64,000 nt of DNA. Origin: Oligoflexales bacterium (GTDB lineage Bacteria > Bdellovibrionota_B > Oligoflexia > Oligoflexales > RGVZ01). The position numbers were made by a program, and so were the translations under genes. Below, in pieces: positions 1,173-48,487 of this stretch (positions are counted from its first letter, which is position 1; each line of letters starts with the position of its first letter). The stretch covers positions 310,001-374,000 of the forward strand of contig CANLUT010000001.1 of NCBI GenBank assembly GCA_947494335.1. The letters run 5' to 3'. A model generated the notes under the pieces. The model worked only from the letters and a program-made list of their open reading frames with translations. It made no database searches and was not told the DNA's origin.

Positions 1173-3101
1173 ATGCGAGTCCTGGTCATTGGTTCTGGTG
1201 GTCGCGAGCATGCTTTGGCTTGGAAGCTTAGGCAATCACCCCTTTGCCAAGAGCTCTATGTTTGGCCTGGCAATATCTGTAGCCAGCGTGTGGGTAAGCG
1301 CCTAGATCTTCCAGAAAACGCAAATTATAAGCATTTAGCTGCGTCGGCTCTCGACGCTAAGATCGACTTGGTCGTCGTGGGCCCCGAGGGACCTTTATCG
1401 TCCGGGATCGCGGATATTTTAACAGCCCGAGGACTAAAGGTTTTTGGACCGACACAAAAGGCGGCCCAATTGGAAAGCTCCAAAGTCTTCGCTAAGCGCA
1501 TCATGATGGAGGCGGGGATCCCGACCGCCGCGTTCGAGGTGGCTACATCTAAAGACGAGTGTTACGACCGCGCGATGCAAATTTTAAATCGTGATGGCGG
1601 TGTGGTGTTGAAGGCGAGTGGACTTGCCAGCGGCAAGGGTGTTTTCGTCTGTCACAATGAAGATGACGTTAACAAAGGGCTCGACCGTTTGTTTGAACCA
1701 ACGATGAGGGCGGCATCAGAGCAAATCGTTGTTGAGGAAATGTTATTTGGGCGCGAGGTCAGCTTTTTTTGTTTCTTGGGTAAGGGTGGCGTTTCGCGTA
1801 TCGGCTTTGCAGTTGATCATAAGCGTCTTCGTGCCGGAGACAAGGGACCTAATACTGGTGGCATGGGTTGCTATACCCCAGTGCCATGGTTACCTGGAGA
1901 CGCAGCTGATCAGGTTGATTCTCTGATTGTGGAACCATTACTAAAGACTCTTTCGAAAAATGGAATTGAATACACGGGATGCCTTTATGTCGGACTTATG
2001 TGGTCGGACAAAGGGCCGTCAGTGGTGGAATTCAATGTCCGCTTAGGTGACCCCGAAGCGCAAGTTCTAGCACTCTCGGACCGTACGGATTGGTTGCCGA
2101 TCATGGCGGCCAAAGTCGGTACAGTTACCAAACGAGAGACCCATTATCAATCACCCTTGCCTGTTATTGGTTATGTGATGGCATCAAGCGGATATCCCTT
2201 CGGTGAGCAGCCAGATGTCGATCAAGTATTACCTTTGGATCTGATCGAAGATACGTCCGATGGAGCGATGGTGTTTTGCGCAAGCGTAAAGTCGGCGTCA
2301 TCAGGGATTAAGACGGGGAGTGGACGAGTTTTTTTGATTGCAGCGTCTGGACAGACCTTTAATGCGGCAAAAGATAAGGCTTTAGGTCGGATCGGGAAAA
2401 TTAGTGGGCTGTGGCCCCAGGCCCAATGGCGTAGTGACATTGGACAGTCAGTGCTTCAATATGAGGATGCTGTGCAGTCTTCGGTCGTGCGCTGTCCGAT
2501 TGTTCTTGGGAGTTCGTCGCCTCGTCGCCGGGAACTTCTAGGTCACCTTGGTCTTAATTTTACAGTCATGAAACCACTGACCGAGGAAACTCCTCGTCAA
2601 GGCGAGTCTGCTGCCGATTATGTTGCGCGTAACGCGTACGAAAAAAATGAGTGGATCTGTGAGCAAGTAGCAGCGTCCCATCCTCAGGGGATTGTGGTTA
2701 TCAGTGCCGATACGATTGTGGTGATTGATGGCAAGATATTGGAAAAGCCACTATCTCCGGCTGATGCGAAAGGAATGCTCTCACAACTCAGCGGTCGGCT
2801 GCATACCGTGTTGACGGCTGTGAGAATTGCATCTGTCAACCCTTCAGGAATCCAAAAACACAAGGAATTCACGGTGGCAACCGATGTGTTTATAAAGAAA
2901 TTATCCGGAAAAGAGATGGATGGTTACATTGCAACAGGCGAGCCATTTGATAAAGCCGGAGGCTACGCGGCGCAGGGTCTTGGTAGTTTTATGGTGCAGG
3001 AAGTTAGAGGATCATTTTCCAACGTGGTTGGTTTGCCGCTGGCTGAAGTGGCAGACAGTCTGCAAACTGACTTTGGAATACCTCTATGGCGCGACCGTTG
3101 A
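1173..3101 (+). CDS. purD-maf: PurD-Maf fusion: GAR synthetase joined to a Maf nucleotide pyrophosphatase
   Basis: Residues 1-435 form a complete phosphoribosylamine-glycine ligase (purine synthesis step 2, ATP-grasp). They show MRVLVIGSGGREHALAWKL at the start, KASGLASGKGV, GGMGCYTPVP, EFNVRLGDPEAQ, and the usual end near WRSDIGQ. Residues 441-642 form a complete Maf/YhdE-type nucleoside triphosphate pyrophosphatase, with LGSSSPRRRELL, ISADTIVV, EKPLSPADA, LSGRLHTVLTAV and GEPFDKAGGYAAQG. Maf enzymes are house-cleaning hydrolases of nucleotides, sometimes linked to division arrest. The join is one open frame; the ATG codons near it are out of frame, so separate translation of Maf is not obvious. 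AGGTGA lies 6 bases before the start. The gene runs convergently into the ABC1 kinase with a 10-base gap. Confidence 0.93.
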   Translation: MRVLVIGSGGREHALAWKLRQSPLCQELYVWPGNICSQRVGKRLDLPENANYKHLAASALDAKIDLVVVGPEGPLSSGIADILTARGLKVFGPTQKAAQLESSKVFAKRIMMEAGIPTAAFEVATSKDECYDRAMQILNRDGGVVLKASGLASGKGVFVCHNEDDVNKGLDRLFEPTMRAASEQIVVEEMLFGREVSFFCFLGKGGVSRIGFAVDHKRLRAGDKGPNTGGMGCYTPVPWLPGDAADQVDSLIVEPLLKTLSKNGIEYTGCLYVGLMWSDKGPSVVEFNVRLGDPEAQVLALSDRTDWLPIMAAKVGTVTKRETHYQSPLPVIGYVMASSGYPFGEQPDVDQVLPLDLIEDTSDGAMVFCASVKSASSGIKTGSGRVFLIAASGQTFNAAKDKALGRIGKISGLWPQAQWRSDIGQSVLQYEDAVQSSVVRCPIVLGSSSPRRRELLGHLGLNFTVMKPLTEETPRQGESAADYVARNAYEKNEWICEQVAASHPQGIVVISADTIVVIDGKILEKPLSPADAKGMLSQLSGRLHTVLTAVRIASVNPSGIQKHKEFTVATDVFIKKLSGKEMDGYIATGEPFDKAGGYAAQGLGSFMVQEVRGSFSNVVGLPLAEVADSLQTDFGIPLWRDR

Positions 3102-23622: not shown

Positions 23623-24240
23623 ATGCCCTTCCAGGAGTCTTTAAATCCTGAATTGATTATAGCCGCCTATCGGGGCGGCTATTTTCCTATGCCTGATCCT
23701 GACTCTGGTGAGATTCTGTGGTTCAACCCTGATCCCAGAGCGATCATCCCTTTAGAGAGTTTTCACGTGTCGCATTCGTTGCGGCGCCTGGCCCGGAAAA
23801 AAAAGTTCGTGGTGACTTTTGATCAGAAATTTTCTCAGGTAATTGAGTCATGCGCGGATAGACCTGCGACCTGGATTACGGCTGAGATTAAAGTCTCTTA
23901 TACAGCCCTGCATCGCGCGGGGCTTTGTCATAGCGTTGAGGTTTGGGATTCGCAGCAGCAATTGGTCGGGGGACTCTATGGTCTCTCCCAGGGTGGCGTG
24001 TTTAATGCAGAAAGTATGTTTAGTCGGGAGACTGATGCATCCAAGATTGCGCTTTGGGCTCTGGTAAATCGACTCAAGGAGCTTGAATTTCAGCTGTTGG
24101 AGGTTCAGTTCATGACCGACCATCTGCGTCGCCTTGGTGCCATGGAGATCCCTAGGCAGGAGTATTTGCGCCGTCTAAACGATGCGTTACAGGTGCCTAC
24201 CGAGTTTAAGGCGCCAGCAGGTCCTTATAACTGGTTGTAA
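23623..24240 (+). CDS. aat: Leucyl/phenylalanyl-tRNA-protein transferase
   Basis: Adds Leu or Phe to N-terminal Arg/Lys of proteins, marking them for ClpAP in the N-end rule. 205 residues, normal length. Family marks: LIIAAYRGGYFPMPD, ILWFNPDPRAIIPLE, HVSHSLRR, the WITAEIKVSYTALHRAGLCHSVEVWD core, GGLYGLSQGGVFNAESMFSRETDASKIALW, and DHLRRLGAMEIPRQEYL. Ten bases separate it from the anti-sigma gene, so it may share that transcript. The probable terminator or leader hairpin at 24311-24354 follows. Confidence 0.96.
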   Translation: MPFQESLNPELIIAAYRGGYFPMPDPDSGEILWFNPDPRAIIPLESFHVSHSLRRLARKKKFVVTFDQKFSQVIESCADRPATWITAEIKVSYTALHRAGLCHSVEVWDSQQQLVGGLYGLSQGGVFNAESMFSRETDASKIALWALVNRLKELEFQLLEVQFMTDHLRRLGAMEIPRQEYLRRLNDALQVPTEFKAPAGPYNWL

Positions 24241-26056: not shown

Positions 26057-28213
26057 TCAACCAACAGCGATCCGATCGGGCACATGACGCAAGCGTTCAA
26101 GTCGTTGCCTCATGGCATCTGGAGTCTCCTGGCGATTCAGGCGGCCGCAGGTTAATTGGGGCGCAACTCCAGAGGCCCTGATGTCTTCAATAATTTGTTC
26201 AATACTTAGGTCTCGACGCGAAACGAAGCCCAAGCCAGCGCTTCCGAAGGCCGATAAAGTGGAAATCAGTTTTACAAACGATTTCTGGCTCTGATCGGCG
26301 CCAATGCCTTGATTAGGGCTTAGTGCGGGGACGCCATCAGCAGGAGTCCATATCTGAACGTGGTTTGGCAAAGACAGTCTCGTAAGAGCCAGCGCCTTTA
26401 GGTACTCGCTCGGCATGATTGTCGCGTCGCGGTTAACCCGGAAGCTCACTGCAAAGCTGGTCTGGTCCAGCGACAATCGGCTCCGTAGATTCGTCACGTC
26501 TTCGGCCCAAAGGGACCAGTTCATGACATTACCAGAGGACTGGAGCACGAGAGCCGGCACGGTTGTCAAGTCTGCGCTTTTCGCGCTTTGCATAACCTGC
26601 CATTTGTCTTCAAGAGCCATCGTTTGATCCGTGGGGCTCTCTTCAAGGATGTCAAGGCCGCTCCCACGGAGGTTGGCCAAATGCTCTGTGACCTTCTGAC
26701 AGCTCTTCTCTGCGGAAAGCTTAGCTGCTGAGATACCGCGGAGTACGATCTGTGACTCCGGAGCCGCCTGATGACATGCGGCTGTGATGGGCGTAAGGTC
26801 GTTTGCTTGCGTCATTAAAGTTGTATCGAGCACGATGACTAGCGTTCTTGTGTTTGAGTCCATGCAAGGAGATTCAAGCAATAGTTTGCGCACTAAGTGA
26901 TGAACGCTTTCAGGGGTGCTTTGGTTGTCGAGTTCGATAACATGAGACTCGGTGATCGAGTGCGCTGCAAGTGCAAGTTGACCAGAGGCATCCAAAGCAG
27001 CAGAGACCTTGTGGAAGGGAGCTTCGCTCGCAATCTGCCAAAGTTCCGATGGCGCAAGAGATCCACCGGTTTCAAGAGCTTCTAGCCTTTCCATAATACT
27101 CTCTGAACAGGTTTCCTCTGCAACGGGTGCCATGTGCTGTCGATCATGGTCGTGGATTGGCTCATATAGTGTTGTGCGTTCAACAGGTATACGACCGCTT
27201 CGACGAATGAGGCTTTCCAAATTTGAGCGCGTCATGATCATCCCCGCGCGTCCACCAGCTGCTCTGGAAATTTTTTCTTCAAGTACAGTTCCATCCAAGT
27301 CGTTTGCTCCAAATTGCAGTGCAAGTTGAGCAATATCCTGACCCAGCATGACCCAATAGCTTTTGATATGACGGAAATTGTCCAAGTACAGTCGTGCTAC
27401 AGCAATTGTTCTCAGGTCGTCGGCGCCAAACGTGTATCGATTGATACCCATTTCGTTCTGAAAGGGTTGGAATGCAAGAGGGATAAAAACATTGAAACCC
27501 TTTGTTTCATCTTGGAGTTCCCTGAGACGACGCATATGATCTACGCGATGCTCAAAGGATTCAATGTGTCCATAGAGCATGGTGCAGTTACTGCGCATGC
27601 CAAGGTTGTGCGCTGTCCTGTGTGTATCGACCCATTGTTCGCCGGATACTTTGGTGTCACAGATTTGGTCACGGATCTCTGGGTGGAAAATTTCGGCTCC
27701 GCCCCCTGGGAATGAGCCGAGTCCAGCTTCGCGTAACTCTGTCATAACCTCTGCGATTGTTTTTCTCGCTTTACGCGCCATCCAATCCAGCTCAACCGCG
27801 GTAAATGCCTTGAGATGAACGTCCGGATAAGCTTTGTGCATCGCCGCAATCATGTCGACGTAGCGCTGAAAGTTCCATCGGGGGTGAAGTCCGCCCACCA
27901 TGTGTAGTTCGGTTGCACCTTGTGCAACGGCCTCTCCGGCCTTAGCAATCATTTCGTCGATTTCGTAGGCGTAGCTGCCTTCTTCCCCAATTTTTTTGCT
28001 GTATGCACAGAACTTACAAGAGAGTGAACAGATGTTTGTTGGGTTTATGTGGCGATTGATATTGTAGAATACGGCAAGACCGTTTTTACGCAAGTTGACT
28101 CGATTGGCCAGTCGTCCCAATGCTTTTAGTGGAGCGTGCTGAAATAGCCAAAGAGCATCCTGCTCATTAATTCTTTGACCTTGCTCAATTTTTAAAGAGA
28201 TATCCCGCATCAT
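26057..28213 (-). CDS. mqnE: Aminofutalosine synthase MqnE with a C-terminal cluster-less radical-SAM-like domain
   Basis: Residues 1-355 are MqnE, the radical SAM enzyme that makes aminofutalosine for menaquinone by the futalosine pathway. The 4Fe-4S motif is C62-C66-C69 (CSLSCKFC), with GLHPRW, AFTAVE, FPGGGAEIF and SYWVMLGQDIAQLALQFGANDL of the MqnE/MqnC/CofH group. Residues 373-690 repeat the same fold pattern: SLAPSELWQIASEAPFHKVSAALDA, a HLANLRGSGLDILEESPTDQ block, the MPSEYLKALALTRLSLPNHVQIW block and IIEDIRASGVAPQ. The Cys motif is absent there, so the second half cannot hold a cluster. Usual MqnE is about 370 residues. A separate active MqnC is not in this window. It lies 21 bases after mqnD. 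Confidence 0.88.
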   Translation of the reverse strand: MMRDISLKIEQGQRINEQDALWLFQHAPLKALGRLANRVNLRKNGLAVFYNINRHINPTNICSLSCKFCAYSKKIGEEGSYAYEIDEMIAKAGEAVAQGATELHMVGGLHPRWNFQRYVDMIAAMHKAYPDVHLKAFTAVELDWMARKARKTIAEVMTELREAGLGSFPGGGAEIFHPEIRDQICDTKVSGEQWVDTHRTAHNLGMRSNCTMLYGHIESFEHRVDHMRRLRELQDETKGFNVFIPLAFQPFQNEMGINRYTFGADDLRTIAVARLYLDNFRHIKSYWVMLGQDIAQLALQFGANDLDGTVLEEKISRAAGGRAGMIMTRSNLESLIRRSGRIPVERTTLYEPIHDHDRQHMAPVAEETCSESIMERLEALETGGSLAPSELWQIASEAPFHKVSAALDASGQLALAAHSITESHVIELDNQSTPESVHHLVRKLLLESPCMDSNTRTLVIVLDTTLMTQANDLTPITAACHQAAPESQIVLRGISAAKLSAEKSCQKVTEHLANLRGSGLDILEESPTDQTMALEDKWQVMQSAKSADLTTVPALVLQSSGNVMNWSLWAEDVTNLRSRLSLDQTSFAVSFRVNRDATIMPSEYLKALALTRLSLPNHVQIWTPADGVPALSPNQGIGADQSQKSFVKLISTLSAFGSAGLGFVSRRDLSIEQIIEDIRASGVAPQLTCGRLNRQETPDAMRQRLERLRHVPDRIAVG

Positions 28214-28234: not shown

Positions 28235-29092
28235 TTAATTTACAAGGTGGCGCTCAAGTTCGATTGGCGCAAATAAACCACAGCGTGCGCCTTCGCTGAA
28301 TAGTGTTTGGATGCCGGTTAGAACGTCAGGTTGAAATTCCAAGCTGCGCTCGTTGACGTACATAGAGATGTAACGGTCTCCCAGCTCAGGACTGAGTGTA
28401 TCTTTAGCCGCTGCAGACGACACCGCAGCAGCAATTGTTTGACTGCGACTTGCTAGTCCGGTTTCTATGCTTTTGCGGTATATACGGTTGAGCCTGGTTG
28501 CGACCTCTGCTTCAATATTTCGACTAACAGCGTTGGCACCTAAAGGAAGGGGTAGGCTAAATTTTTTGTGCCAAAGTTTGCCTAAATCCGTAATCTTACG
28601 AAGGCCAGCAGATGAAGGATCAAGCTGCAGCTCATGAATAAGAATCCCGGCTTCGACATCACCGCGAAGAACGGCGTCTTTGATATTCATAAAATACATG
28701 GGAACTGGTTCAAACGGACCAAATAGCGACTGAGCAGCAATGTGCGCCGACGTATTGATTCCTGGCACGGCGACTCGTCTACCAGCGAGATCATCGACGC
28801 GTAAATTGCTGCATGGTGATGTCACGATGGCAGGGCCAAACTCATCGCCCACACTGGCTCCAACCGGCATCATTAGGTAGCGATCACGCAAGGTTGGGTA
28901 GGCGCCAACGCTGATTGCTGTGATGTCATATTTGTTCGTGAGGGCCGCTTCGTTCAACTCCTGAATGTCTCCTACCGTGAAGGAGAACTCAAAATCCTCC
29001 CAGTCGACTCTGCGCTCTTTAAGGGCTAGAATCATGAATGCATCATCCGTATCTGGACTATAAGCTATAGAAATTGGTCTTTTAATGCTCAT
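28235..29092 (-). CDS. mqnD: 1,4-dihydroxy-6-naphthoate synthase MqnD
   Basis: A periplasmic-binding-protein-fold enzyme that turns cyclic de-hypoxanthinylfutalosine into 1,4-dihydroxy-6-naphthoate in the futalosine menaquinone pathway. 285 residues, usual length. Family marks: IAYSPDTDDAFMILAL, VGDIQELNEAAL, DITAISVGAYPTL, GPAIVTS, VAVPGINTSAH and AGILIHELQL. The ATG at 29092 is preferred because GAGG lies about 8 bases before it. A longer frame reaches into the upstream gene without such support. It starts 10 bases after mvaK1. Confidence 0.92.
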   Translation of the reverse strand: MSIKRPISIAYSPDTDDAFMILALKERRVDWEDFEFSFTVGDIQELNEAALTNKYDITAISVGAYPTLRDRYLMMPVGASVGDEFGPAIVTSPCSNLRVDDLAGRRVAVPGINTSAHIAAQSLFGPFEPVPMYFMNIKDAVLRGDVEAGILIHELQLDPSSAGLRKITDLGKLWHKKFSLPLPLGANAVSRNIEAEVATRLNRIYRKSIETGLASRSQTIAAAVSSAAAKDTLSPELGDRYISMYVNERSLEFQPDVLTGIQTLFSEGARCGLFAPIELERHLVN

Positions 29093-29102
29093 GGTGAAGA
29101 CC

Positions 29103-30134
29103 TCAGGGTATGAATATGGGGTGTACACGGTCACTGCCCATATCCTGCCGCAGTGCAGCAATGACCTTGTCGCATTTGTTGGTTGGTATAAGGGCTAACA
29201 CGCAGCCACCACCACCGGCGCCTGTGACTTTTGCCGCTGAGGCGCCGTAGCGTAACGCATTGGCCACGACGTCAGCAATTGGTTCCGTCACAACTCCTGC
29301 GTTAGTCAACAAATCGTGACACTTTGCCATGGCGTCTGCCAGTAATTCAGATTCACCCTCGCGCAGTGCCCGTGCTGCGTCAGTTGTAATGTCGTTGAAC
29401 GTTGAAATGACAGTTGAGCCCTGATCTCTAAACCATGGTTCAGCCTTGCGGACCATGTTGATAGTTGGAGAGCGAACTCCTGTGTCCAAGAGGGCAAAGC
29501 ACCATGGAAGGTTGCTTGATCTTGGTCGGTTTACAATTAAGGCTTCTGCATCGCGACCGCGTTCAAATAAAATAGCCTGTTCCAAACTCACGACGGAGGT
29601 GTCAAGACCTGACGGGTTGCCATGGAATCGTCTTTCGAGGCGGTTGGCAAGTTGAGAGAGTCGCGCTGGTGTCAAAGTAATTCCACAAATCTGACAAAGG
29701 CCACGCAGTAGACTAACGCAGAGACTTGCAGACGAACCAACGCCAGCTCCAAGCATCAGCGTGCTGTGTCCATCGATAGATACATTGAACGGTGCAAGTC
29801 CAAGTACTTCAAATGCCTCTTGAACCATCGCAATCAACTGATCGTTGACAGGTTTGCCACCAATTTGAAATTTTATTTTAGGCGTGTTGGTTGCCACACG
29901 ATCGGTGAAAATCCTCAGGTTCATTGATTTCGACAATAATGGAATGGCAATGGCCCTTGCTCCGTAGACAACAGCATGCTCGCCGACGAGAATGATCTTT
30001 CCAGCAGCCCGCGAACTGGCATCACTACGAACTGGACCTATCGTGCGTCCTAATTGCTGCGTAAACGTGAAGTGTAAAGTTTTCTCATGTCCCAGTGCTC
30101 TTTGACTCTCAGGCGTCCAAAGGAATTCAGACAT
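29103..30134 (-). CDS. mvaK1: Mevalonate kinase
   Basis: A GHMP-superfamily kinase phosphorylating mevalonate, 343 residues. Family marks: AGKIILVGEHAVVYGARAIAIPL at the mevalonate-binding start, LMLGAGVGSSASLCVSLLRG (ATP loop GxGSSA), FHGNPSGLDTSVV (catalytic Asp) and KVTGAGGGGCVLAL. The 44 residues before AGKIIL are extra and not part of the usual fold. A near-consensus ribosome-binding site GGAGGTGA precedes the ATG, 6 bases after its GGAGG core, in the end of mvaD, so the start is firm. Third kinase or decarboxylase gene of the mevalonate set. Confidence 0.92.
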   Translation of the reverse strand: MSEFLWTPESQRALGHEKTLHFTFTQQLGRTIGPVRSDASSRAAGKIILVGEHAVVYGARAIAIPLLSKSMNLRIFTDRVATNTPKIKFQIGGKPVNDQLIAMVQEAFEVLGLAPFNVSIDGHSTLMLGAGVGSSASLCVSLLRGLCQICGITLTPARLSQLANRLERRFHGNPSGLDTSVVSLEQAILFERGRDAEALIVNRPRSSNLPWCFALLDTGVRSPTINMVRKAEPWFRDQGSTVISTFNDITTDAARALREGESELLADAMAKCHDLLTNAGVVTEPIADVVANALRYGASAAKVTGAGGGGCVLALIPTNKCDKVIAALRQDMGSDRVHPIFIP

Positions 30135-31200
30135 TTGTCACCTCCCCGAACAGCTCTTTTGCGGTCCCACGAGCTAACGTAGGTCCAGGTCCAATTTGAT
30201 CCATAATGACTCTGACCTGAGGCCACGCTTCAGCAACTCTTTTTGCGACGCTAGCATAGGCGTTTGTTTCGCAAATCAGATGAACGTTCGGCCCTGCGTC
30301 AATGGTAAACCATGCTGGAAGACCGCCGGTAGAGCGTTCCTGTCTTACCCATGCCAGAAACCTGGCTGTGTCCTCTTGAATGTAATTTGCAGCCGGTGTC
30401 CCGGTCATCGCAACAGCGTGCATTTCAAGAGCATCGGATTCGATTTGCTCGCCCAATGCTTCTATGTTGCGCGACTTAATCGCAGCCCTGACTCGTTCCA
30501 TTCGTGAGTGAATGCCGGCAAGTCGAGCTGGAAAAAAAGGACTTCCCCATGCGGCCTTGTGTGCATCGGATGAAGACGTGTGCTTTGAGTGACCAGAAAA
30601 CACGATGACCAGATCGGATAAGCCCCAGTGGCTTGACGGACAAATTTCAACAATTTCTTGGGAATTTGCGGTATCACCTGCCGCCCAATGAACAAATCCA
30701 CCAAAGATACTTCTACCGGCACTTCCACTACCCATGCGCGCCAGGTGAGCAAGACGCTGTCGCGGCATTCCCAACACGGCAAGCTTGTCCCATTCTGTTT
30801 CGCCGGTCAGGGCAGCCGTTGCTGCCAATGTCAAAGCGGCAAAACCACTGGCACTGCTCGCGATGCCACATGCAGTTGGAAACGTGTTTTGCGAGGTAAT
30901 ATCGAGGGCAGACGTAACGCGCAGTTCTTCACGAAGACGGCCAAGGTGTTCGAATACCTTGTGGGATGATGACTTACGATCTGACGTTAATTCCTGTCCC
31001 TCGAAACGGAAAATGTCGCGAGATCCAGGAATTTTTTTTGCGCTGGTGATGGTTCGGCAGCGTGTCAGAGTCATAGATAATGAATCGTTAGCGGGCCATT
31101 GAATAGCCGCATCACGTTTCCCCCAATATTTGACGAAGGCGATATTGCTGGGGGCTGAGGCAGTAAATGTCATGTTCTCAGGAGCCATTGAATCAATCAC
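30127..31200 (-). CDS. mvaD: Diphosphomevalonate decarboxylase
   Basis: A GHMP-fold enzyme that decarboxylates mevalonate diphosphate to isopentenyl diphosphate. Family marks: SAPSNIAFVKYWGKRDAAIQWPANDSLSMTL (typical MvaD start), GIASSASGFAALTLAA (ATP loop), MGSGSAGRSIFGGFV (catalytic Asp region variant), and FTIDAGPNVHLIC. The GTG at 31200 is chosen because AAGGAG lies 7 bases before it; an in-frame TTG at 31206 and the ATG at 31188 are alternatives. It overlaps the end of mvaK2 and the start of mvaK1. Confidence 0.94.
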   Translation of the reverse strand: MIDSMAPENMTFTASAPSNIAFVKYWGKRDAAIQWPANDSLSMTLTRCRTITSAKKIPGSRDIFRFEGQELTSDRKSSSHKVFEHLGRLREELRVTSALDITSQNTFPTACGIASSASGFAALTLAATAALTGETEWDKLAVLGMPRQRLAHLARMGSGSAGRSIFGGFVHWAAGDTANSQEIVEICPSSHWGLSDLVIVFSGHSKHTSSSDAHKAAWGSPFFPARLAGIHSRMERVRAAIKSRNIEALGEQIESDALEMHAVAMTGTPAANYIQEDTARFLAWVRQERSTGGLPAWFTIDAGPNVHLICETNAYASVAKRVAEAWPQVRVIMDQIGPGPTLARGTAKELFGEVTNV

Positions 31201-32269
31201 GATCAAGCTCCTTCGTCACAGGCTGAACAATACTTCTCGATTTCGAGCCAGATTTTTCAGGAATCACTTTGGAAACAATACGCGCACCAGAGTCGGAAAA
31301 TGGAACATTGAGGCGATGCCAGCCAATCGTCCACAACTTCTGTGTAACGGCGCCTATGTCGGCGGTACGTCCCACAATCAAAATGGCATCTTCTCCACCT
31401 GCTCCAGTAGGCTTCCATGTCCAAGTCTGATCACATCCAGGTATTCCCTGTAATTGATCAGCAACTGAGGATGGAAAGTGTGGGCTGCCTACGAAAAGCT
31501 GACGCATCGCACCACATCCTTGGATCAATCGCTTCAAGTTATTTGCCTGGGGCCATTGGACCGAGACATTGAAAGCGTCAATCAAAGATTCAGAGACGTC
31601 CAAAAGCCGCTCGGTCCGATTGGCGCCTTCGAGCCAAGACGAAGTTGTTAAGGTGGTATGTGCGGTGGGAGCTCCCTGGCCACCAACGAAAACGTGCACA
31701 ATATCCGCGAGATCATTCAAGTCATGCCTGAACCAATGAGGCTTCCACTTGTTGTCCTGGTATTCGTAGTTGAATTCAACAAGACCACCTGCAAACTGGG
31801 TAGCAATATCGTAGCCACTGGCAATGCCTTGGCCTTCAGATTGCAGTGTCCAGGCCGCATGCACAGCATCAATGGGAAGACCGCCAGGTCGGGAGGCGTC
31901 TGGCCCGTTTTTTAGGATGTAAAATGCTGTGCAAACACCCAAGCGTAAGGCGGATGAGGAGCCGATCCCGTGTTTGATTTCGATATCTGAAGATACCTCG
32001 ACGGTTCCGCCGTGCATCCCGCATCGTCGTGCAGCAAATTGTACCGCGCGGCAAAGCATATCTACCTGCGGTGTATGGTCGTCATAAACGAATTTTGGCT
32101 CTGGCCAAAGGTTGCTGTGAATCTCCCAGTGGGCAGCGTGATTATCCCAGTTCACTTTGACAGTCATTCCGCACGAGAGTGTAACCGCAAGAGCGTGCCC
32201 ACCCCGAAGCACAGCGTACTCGCCTGCTAGCATGACTTTTCCGGGAACGAAGACTTCAATGTGTTTCAA
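31193..32269 (-). CDS. mvaK2: Phosphomevalonate kinase
   Basis: A GHMP kinase making mevalonate diphosphate, 358 residues. It shows VPGKVMLAGEYAVLRGGHALAVTLSCGM at the substrate end, KHGIGSSSALRLGVCTAFYIL (ATP loop), SGYDIATQFAGGLVEF, and PTGAGGEDAILIVG. Kinases of this sort are easily confused with mevalonate kinase; the operon order mvaA-K2-D-K1 and the LAGEYAVL motif favour phosphomevalonate kinase. It begins 29 bases after mvaA and its stop overlaps mvaD by 8 bases. Confidence 0.88.
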   Translation of the reverse strand: MKHIEVFVPGKVMLAGEYAVLRGGHALAVTLSCGMTVKVNWDNHAAHWEIHSNLWPEPKFVYDDHTPQVDMLCRAVQFAARRCGMHGGTVEVSSDIEIKHGIGSSSALRLGVCTAFYILKNGPDASRPGGLPIDAVHAAWTLQSEGQGIASGYDIATQFAGGLVEFNYEYQDNKWKPHWFRHDLNDLADIVHVFVGGQGAPTAHTTLTTSSWLEGANRTERLLDVSESLIDAFNVSVQWPQANNLKRLIQGCGAMRQLFVGSPHFPSSVADQLQGIPGCDQTWTWKPTGAGGEDAILIVGRTADIGAVTQKLWTIGWHRLNVPFSDSGARIVSKVIPEKSGSKSRSIVQPVTKELDRD

Positions 32270-32298
32270 GAGTTGGTCGGTCCTCTGTTGGTTGTTGC

Positions 32299-33567
32299 TT
32301 AATTAGTGGAGTTAACGCGCGAGCCATGGTGCTGTAACAGATCCAGATTCTTCTGATGAAGGCTCATGTGTCCACGCTGAATTCCCTCGGATGCCAATGC
32401 GCGCAAAGCTGATAGATTTTGTGCCAGGCCCGTTGCTACAACAATCTGAGCGAGCATCTTTGCGTTGGGATGGCCCATTAGTTTTAGGGCAGATTGCGCT
32501 GTCGGGTGAAGCTTAGTCACGCCCCCAACCACTCCGACCGCCATTGGTAGTTCCAATTGGCCATGGAGGTCGCCATGTAAGGTTTTTTTCCAAACAGCAA
32601 GCGGGCGGTACTTGCCGTCTCGACAAGCCCACGCATGAGCTCCGGCTTCTACTGCGCGCCAATCGTTACCCGTTGCAATCAATACTGGGTCAATGCCATT
32701 CATGATGCCTTTGTTGTTTGTCGTGGCACGATGAACATCGTAGTAGGCAAAAAGATAGGCCTTCTCAATGCGATCGACTACGTCTGTACCTTTAAACTCT
32801 GGGGAGTCAAAGGTGCTGGCCGGAACAAAACATTCAGCGCGTGCCAGTCTGCGTTCAGTCAGGTTCGTGAGAATACGTAGTCCTATGTCACAGGGCAAAA
32901 GCTCTGGCATCAGTGCGGATACTCTCTCACACATGGTGTTGACGATATTGGCCCCCATCGCATCGCGGGTATCTATGTGCAGATGGATGACGAGACTTTT
33001 CATCTCAGGGATATAGTGCCAATCAAGATCACAGGCACCCCCGCCGCGGGCTAACAGGCTGTCGTGTCCTCGATTGGCAAATGCGATCAGTTCATTTTTT
33101 TTCTCGGTTAAAACGGCATCAAAATCACAAGTTTTCTTCAAAAATAGCTGAATCTGGCCGGTCATCACTGGCTCGGTGGCGGACGCTTTGAATCCTCCAC
33201 CCAATCTTGCGAGTTTTGCGCCGTGGCTTGCAGCTGCCAAGACACTAGACTCTTCAACGGCCATCGGCACAAGGACATCGTGCCCATTAATGAGGAAGTT
33301 TGTCGCCACGCCAAGGGGTATTGAAAATGTGCCGATTGCATTTTCGATGAAAACGTCAGCTAATTCGCCGTTGAGACTTCCAAACTGACCAAGGTGGAAA
33401 CGATCTGAATCACTCAAATTTGCCGCTTTGACAACCGTCGAAAGTCTCTCTCCAATAGGCAGTTCATAAAAGCCAGGAAGTCGTGACTGGACTTTTGTAT
33501 CTTGCTTGTGTTCGGACCCAGATTGAGACGAATGATCCACTTTGGGTTTTAGTTGAGACGTGTCCAT
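32299..33567 (-). CDS. mvaA: Class II HMG-CoA reductase
   Basis: Reduces HMG-CoA to mevalonate, or the reverse, in the mevalonate route. 422 residues, class II length. Catalytic residues of the family are visible: E75 in ENAIG, K286 in NNKGIMNGID, D302 in GNDWRAVEAG and H404 in MSLHQKNL. The DAMGANIVNTM cofactor motif is present too. It is the first gene of the cluster. There is no Shine-Dalgarno motif just upstream, but a good sigma-70 promoter ends about 28 bases before the ATG. HMG-CoA synthase and isopentenyl diphosphate isomerase are not in this window. Confidence 0.95.
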   Translation of the reverse strand: MDTSQLKPKVDHSSQSGSEHKQDTKVQSRLPGFYELPIGERLSTVVKAANLSDSDRFHLGQFGSLNGELADVFIENAIGTFSIPLGVATNFLINGHDVLVPMAVEESSVLAAASHGAKLARLGGGFKASATEPVMTGQIQLFLKKTCDFDAVLTEKKNELIAFANRGHDSLLARGGGACDLDWHYIPEMKSLVIHLHIDTRDAMGANIVNTMCERVSALMPELLPCDIGLRILTNLTERRLARAECFVPASTFDSPEFKGTDVVDRIEKAYLFAYYDVHRATTNNKGIMNGIDPVLIATGNDWRAVEAGAHAWACRDGKYRPLAVWKKTLHGDLHGQLELPMAVGVVGGVTKLHPTAQSALKLMGHPNAKMLAQIVVATGLAQNLSALRALASEGIQRGHMSLHQKNLDLLQHHGSRVNSTN

Positions 33568-47713: not shown

Positions 47714-48487
47714 TCAAAATTTGAAGTGTTTGATTCTCTCGCCTTTAGCGCCAATTTCCGTCATGGCCTGGATGCCGATTTCAATATGAAGATCAACAAA
47801 CTCGCTGGTCACTTTTTTATCACTTTCTTCGGTTTTGACACCGTCGGGCGTCATGGGCACGTCTGAAACCAATAAAAGGGCTCCCCGCGGAATGTCATTT
47901 GCAAAGCCAACTGAGAAAATTGTCGCGGTTTCCATGTCAATGGCGATGGGCTTGAGTTTGCGTAATCGCTCTTTGAAGCCAACGTCGTGCTCCCACACTC
48001 GACGATTGGTGGTGTACACAACGCCGGTACGATATTCTAAACCGTGTTCAATCAGCTTATCTGATACAAACTTGTGCAATTTGAAAGATGGCATGGCCGG
48101 TACTTCCGGTGGCAGGTAGTCGTTACTCGTGCCTTCGCCCCGAATAGCGGCCATGGGGAGAATGAAGTGACCAATTTCAGTTGAGTGCTTGAGGCCGCCA
48201 CATTTGCCAAGAAATAGAACTGCTTTAGGGCGAATGGCTGTCAATAGATCCATGACTGTGGCCGCATTGGCCGAGCCCATTCCAAAGTTAATAATCGATA
48301 GTCCGTCATCGTTTGTTGAGGTTTGCATAGCTTTATCCAAGCCGCGCACCTGAGATTTAAATTTATTGGCAAAAATTGACACATAGTTGCCGAAGTTAGT
48401 TAACAGAACATAATCCCCAAATTCTTCCATGGGGGTGCCCGTGTACCGTGGTAGCCAATTTCTAACGATCTCGTCTTTTGTATGCAT
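47714..48487 (-). CDS. amn: AMP nucleosidase, short form
   Basis: A phosphorylase-superfamily enzyme that cleaves AMP to adenine and ribose 5-phosphate. 257 residues, as in Bacteroidetes-type AMP nucleosidases that lack the N-terminal regulatory domain of the E. coli form. It has LSIINFGMGSANAATVMDLL, VLFLGKCGGLKHSTEIGHFILP, AIRGEGTSNDYLPPEVPA and the catalytic IDMETATIF near the C-terminus. Since the futalosine pathway needs a nucleosidase, a moonlighting role can be imagined, but the motifs fit AMP. It is divergent from the ABC1 gene. Confidence 0.88.
   Translation of the reverse strand: MHTKDEIVRNWLPRYTGTPMEEFGDYVLLTNFGNYVSIFANKFKSQVRGLDKAMQTSTNDDGLSIINFGMGSANAATVMDLLTAIRPKAVLFLGKCGGLKHSTEIGHFILPMAAIRGEGTSNDYLPPEVPAMPSFKLHKFVSDKLIEHGLEYRTGVVYTTNRRVWEHDVGFKERLRKLKPIAIDMETATIFSVGFANDIPRGALLLVSDVPMTPDGVKTEESDKKVTSEFVDLHIEIGIQAMTEIGAKGERIKHFKF

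Follow-up and report, generated by a model that had tools for sequence, protein, structure and literature searches.

The closest described systems to the locus reported here include two enzymes of the menaquinone pathway. One is MqnE, aminofutalosine synthase (TIGR03700; PDB 6xi9 and 6xig); the first 350 residues of our protein make up a complete MqnE with its motif intact and a score above the curated cut-off. The other is MqnC, cyclic dehypoxanthinyl futalosine synthase (TIGR03699), often encoded right after mqnE; it is the best-matching family for the second half of the protein and its probable ancestor. Two radical-SAM halves of one pathway are likewise carried on one polypeptide in the bifunctional FO synthase CofGH/FbiC, both halves of which are active, cluster-bearing enzymes; in NCBIfam, NF006687 bears the name bifunctional CofGH. 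Radical-SAM proteins have, to our knowledge, been described almost exclusively as catalysts. Enterobacterial QueE sets a precedent for using such an enzyme without catalysis, as its second role outlasts the loss of activity: the R27A mutant no longer supports queuosine synthesis and still modulates septation (PMC11142719). In the open-licence literature on MqnE-MqnC fusions, radical-SAM pseudo-enzymes and Oligoflexia futalosine genes, no description of a build such as ours was found, in agreement with the original prediction, which knew of no described MqnE of this kind.

The window is a 64,000-nucleotide stretch of contig CANLUT010000001.1 from an Oligoflexales bacterium. The presence of an MqnE followed by an additional C half at 26057-28213 was confirmed, with the following layout.

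26057..28213, minus strand: fused gene, catalytic MqnE plus a probably MqnC-derived pseudo-domain (ATG start, 718 aa)
27164..28213, minus strand: MqnE half, residues 1-350, intact aminofutalosine synthase (TIGR03700, 494.5 bits; PDB 6xi9, E 2e-94)
28007..28030, minus strand: iron-sulfur motif CxxxCxxC, formed by C62, C66 and C69 in the MqnE half (from sequence)
27104..27163, minus strand: linker, residues 351-370, differing among species (alignment A1)
26060..27163, minus strand: C half, residues 351-718, a barrel probably derived from MqnC that lacks iron-sulfur and SAM motifs
26915..26932, minus strand: turn between beta1 and alpha1 in the C half, 6 residues long (428-433; DSSP, full-length model)
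26378..26407, minus strand: EYLKALALTR, residues 603-612, signature of the MqnC type (alignments and conservation)
26078..26089, minus strand: C-terminal RHxP motif, residues 709-712, common to most full-length fusions (alignment)
28235..29161, minus strand: mqnD-type gene directly upstream of the fused gene, gap of about 21 bases (PF02621, 184 bits)

Our main reading, to which we assign a probability of roughly two in three, sees in the C half a former MqnC that was fused to MqnE, lost its cluster-binding loop and now serves as a non-catalytic partner domain. The computations made here cover the fold of the C half, its MqnC ancestry, the missing motif and loop, its conservation, the selection acting on it and its persistence after pathway loss. 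As predicted, the first half holds the C62-C66-C69 motif; its match to TIGR03700 spans residues 6-353 and exceeds the NCBIfam cut-off of 434.55 bits, and the solved structure nearest to the full protein by sequence is also an MqnE (6xi9). The C-terminal 347 aa matched no NCBIfam family, and the C half had no match in Pfam or among PDB sequences. A sequencing or assembly fusion was ruled out, as over 20 independent genomes share this architecture. By eye, a mevalonate-pathway-like cluster (kinases, decarboxylase, HMG-CoA reductase) lies directly upstream of mqnD at 29103-33567 on the minus strand. Elsewhere in the window, a 642-aa open reading frame (1173-3101, plus strand) fuses PurD, with its GARS N, A and C domains, to a complete Maf domain.

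The C half was modelled with AlphaFold2 (pLDDT 85.5, pTM 0.86). The best matches of this model in the PDB were four MqnE chains (6xi9/6xig; TM 0.68-0.71 by query length, E ~1e-9), and the next were HydE and HydG. The predicted structure shows the C half to be a genuine barrel of the radical-SAM type, as had been proposed, and the fold search and the profiles described below tie it to MqnE/MqnC instead of an unrelated family. Neither the window protein nor any relative examined has CxxxCxxC in its C half, which bears out the claim of a second half devoid of this motif. In the full-length model, the spacing from strand 1 to helix 1 determined by DSSP is 28 residues in the MqnE half versus 6 in the C half, and the 28-residue loop is the site of the three cluster cysteines. 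By this model, the CxxxCxxC loop of the C half has been excised, not mutated. Since the whole loop is gone and not the cysteines alone, the C half cannot work as MqnC. It carries neither the cluster motif nor the loop of that enzyme, and against the TIGR03699 cut-off of 428.1 bits the C halves of relatives reached 37, 25 and 16 bits, while that of the window protein gave no match.

The C half had been said to follow the order of segments of MqnE and MqnC. All four of the correspondences listed for it line up in register when the profile of the C halves is aligned with that of MqnE: LAPSELWQIA with INEQDALWLF, GLDILEE with GLGSFPG, EYLKALALTRL with DDLRTIAVARL, and, at the C terminus, IIEDIRASGVAPQ with LESLIRRSGRIPVE. 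The resemblance exceeds chance: profile-profile E-values ranged from 1e-13 to 3e-22, in line with the fold search above and with the plain blastp match given below. When hhalign was run on profiles of similar size built from cleanly sorted sets, the C halves matched canonical MqnC with E 3e-22, MqnE from outside the order with 5e-17, the fused MqnE halves with 5e-15 and a divergent MqnC-like set with 1.5e-8. The MqnC score exceeded the MqnE score for 21 of 22 single sequences, many of them weakly. In the reverse search, the C-half profile gave weak matches outside the order; in the 14 outside genomes where this search and the TIGR03699 search both yield coordinates, all 14 fell on mqnC and none on mqnE. 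The MqnE clade of the maximum-likelihood tree leaves out the C halves with support of 100/100. The C halves themselves sit on long branches and form no supported sister branch to MqnC; it is the AU tests and the profiles that point to MqnC: grouping the C halves with the fused MqnE halves (p 0.006) or with all MqnE (p 0.025) was rejected, and grouping them with Silvanigrella-type MqnC was not (p 0.30). Furthermore, MqnC bears the signature [VE]EYL..LA.SR where MqnE has DDL..IAVAR, and EYLKALALTR of the C half is of the MqnC type. Judged by profiles, reverse search and AU tests, common ancestry with MqnC, and with it an origin of the C half as a decayed canonical MqnC, appears well supported. 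Of the two origins originally offered, a degraded MqnC or a duplicated MqnE, the former stands and the latter does not.

No MqnC over the cut-off was found in any Oligoflexales genome searched. The genome of the window possesses a second, intact MqnC-like gene (G000:C2:611854-612873, 362 aa), which scores 288 bits against the TIGR03699 cut-off, and this divergent gene is also present in most relatives. The proposed search for an intact mqnC elsewhere in the genome thus brought up a divergent MqnC-like gene and no canonical one. The divergent gene presumably does the MqnC step now. An apparent ribosomal protein L19 gene, recognised by eye, lies near it, with no other menaquinone genes (L002/L112). 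Because no gene exceeded the cut-off for MqnB, the futalosine nucleosidase, anywhere in the order, MqnB is uninformative as a marker of the pathway; the window contains a gene of the PNP_UDP_1 phosphorylase superfamily (PF01048) at 47714-48487 on the minus strand. The only menaquinone of Oligoflexus tunisiensis, type species of the order, is menaquinone-7 (PMC4179278).

Protein and profile searches detected the C half in 27 of 43 Oligoflexales genomes, spread over seven families (f1, f2, f6, f7, f8, f10 and f11), so that the build recurs in homologous genomes. In families f3 and f4, MqnE is followed by no more than a tail of about 95-150 residues; as short remnants are all that these families keep, the C half is dispensable in some lineages. 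Outside the order, no strong match to the C half was found among 383 genomes across the bacterial domain. In Silvanigrella-type genomes of the same class, a canonical mqnC directly follows or overlaps mqnE, and the same arrangement occurs in many Deltaproteobacteria and Nitrospirae. A Silvanigrella-type mqnE-mqnC pair, with 64% identity to the window MqnE, also stands on VGHE01000003.1 (L169), whose title 'Betaproteobacteria bacterium' is probably a misnomer. A second kind of fusion within the pathway was seen in genome G012 (L078, 7410-9875), where an 822-aa frame combines an MqnD-type domain, MqnE and a short C-terminal remnant. In addition, three genomes (G028, G037 and G022; L083, L084 and L085) encode stand-alone MqnE-like proteins of about 350-370 aa without a C half, which are about 35% identical to the window MqnE and below the TIGR03700 cut-off.

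Selection was assessed by dN/dS (NG86) in the four close pairs for which dS could be estimated for both halves. Values for the C half were 0.11, 0.12, 0.09 and 0.17, and those for the MqnE half were 0.02-0.08, indicating that the C half is constrained, though less than the MqnE half. The assumption that the second half is kept is borne out by this purifying selection.

All seven genomes of family f6 have a MenD above the cut-off; none of them has a PF02621 match that reaches its cut-off, or an intact MqnE or MqnC. Two of these genomes, G014 and G025, nevertheless encode a relative of the fused protein (589 and 608 aa) in which both cysteine motifs are lost. The neighbours of this gene include Aat (PF03588) and an exonuclease (PF00929). 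As the window also has an aat gene (23623-24240), about 2 kb from the fused gene, the f6 gene very probably occupies the same locus as the window fusion. Identity between G014 and G025 is 31% for the C half and 21% for the N half, whereas pathway-bearing relatives show the reverse order (for example, 30% for the C half and 69% for the N half between G032 and G010). Both halves are also dead in G040 of family f11, a genome 84% complete in which MqnA/MqnD-type genes are still present; placing its gene and those of f6 in one clade gave an AU p of 0.46. The roles originally suggested for the C half, namely structure, dimerisation or passing on the intermediate, each tie it to the menaquinone pathway, and two relatives have lost that pathway and keep the gene. 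Since the gene is retained in two genomes without MqnA, MqnC, MqnD and MqnE, the pseudo-half apparently serves a purpose other than menaquinone chemistry, and the dead half has probably taken on another job. This persistence after pathway loss is the most surprising part of the case. It is possible, and we propose it tentatively, that a two-barrel radical-SAM pseudo-enzyme was born in a menaquinone enzyme and outlived its pathway, with a wholly different cellular role, exerted through the MqnC-derived half, in f6, whose menaquinone would come from the classical route.

Four other explanations of the C half were weighed. It may dock the divergent MqnC-like enzyme and pass on pathway intermediates as a scaffold or channel. 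Its fusion beside MqnE, the partner step, and the co-occurrence of the MqnC-like gene in most fused genomes are consistent with such a role, but the protein persists in the two genomes devoid of MqnA, C, D and E, and f3 and f4 have the MqnC-like gene with a mere remnant tail; we regard this explanation as unlikely. Less likely again is that the C half is now a different enzyme with a cofactor-free activity. The barrel is a versatile scaffold, and a stretch new in the C half, P-[TA]-LSPxxGxG....QHPxxK, with a lysine invariant in alignment A1, stands in for the MqnC loop. Conserved features include E603, Y604, A607 and R612 of the MqnC-type EYL motif, W566, K648 and RHxP, in which H and P are nearly invariant (alignment A6). 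However, conserved residues are not enriched at the barrel mouth relative to the rest of the core (p 0.09), and several of the conserved polar residues have disappeared in the genus to which the window belongs. Because conservation does not favour the barrel mouth, a kept ligand-binding pocket at this position is unsupported.

A fossil C half without function, left to neutral erosion downstream of an essential MqnE, also seems decidedly improbable. It does evolve much faster than the MqnE half (51% versus 92% identity to the nearest relative), and the short remnants of f3 and f4 would fit such erosion, but the low dN/dS of the C half, full-length reading frames unbroken across seven families and the better conservation of the C half in f6 argue against it. 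A decayed internal tandem duplicate of MqnE is very improbable: MqnE profiles do match the C half, the MqnE half finds the C half of G032 by plain blastp (369 columns, E 5e-9) and the nearest solved structures are MqnE, though MqnE was the sole member of the MqnC/MqnE group that a PDB sequence search with the full protein brought up. Against this origin, the MqnC profile is ahead by five orders of magnitude, and the 14 reverse matches, the rejection by the AU test and the EYL..LA.TR signature all favour MqnC.

Under our preferred reading of the C half as a former MqnC, an ancestral adjacent mqnE-mqnC pair would have merged into a single reading frame before the Oligoflexales diversified, in their common ancestor; fusion of the neighbours may be the simplest origin, since the pair is adjacent or overlapping in outside genomes. 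A divergent MqnC-like enzyme encoded elsewhere in the genome would then have taken over catalysis, after which the fused MqnC half would have dropped the whole cluster-binding loop and persisted as a pseudo-enzyme under purifying selection. The C half may pack on MqnE as a pseudo-dimer that stabilises or regulates MqnE, may bind a protein or ligand partner, or both, and would have gained a molecular role free of menaquinone chemistry. The pTM of 0.88 of the full-length model suggests a defined arrangement of the two halves in the model.

A cluster-less barrel fused to a working one, together with relatives in which both are dead, forms a natural series on the cofactor-free fold, and this series bears on how an enzyme turns into a partner or regulator. 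It also matters for annotation: judged by mqnE these genomes seem complete, yet they have no canonical mqnC, and its probable replacement scores under the curated cut-off. Compared with MqnE elsewhere, which is mostly about 350-450 aa in a sample of 80 loci, the Oligoflexales fusion has about 360 extra residues. In contrast to MqnC, its C half has no CxxxCxxC loop, falls far under the cut-off even in the best-scoring relative and is fused to MqnE. QueE retains its cluster motif and enzyme activity, whereas the C half of the fusion has no loop to hold a cluster. Unlike CofGH/FbiC, the Oligoflexales fusion has one dead half.
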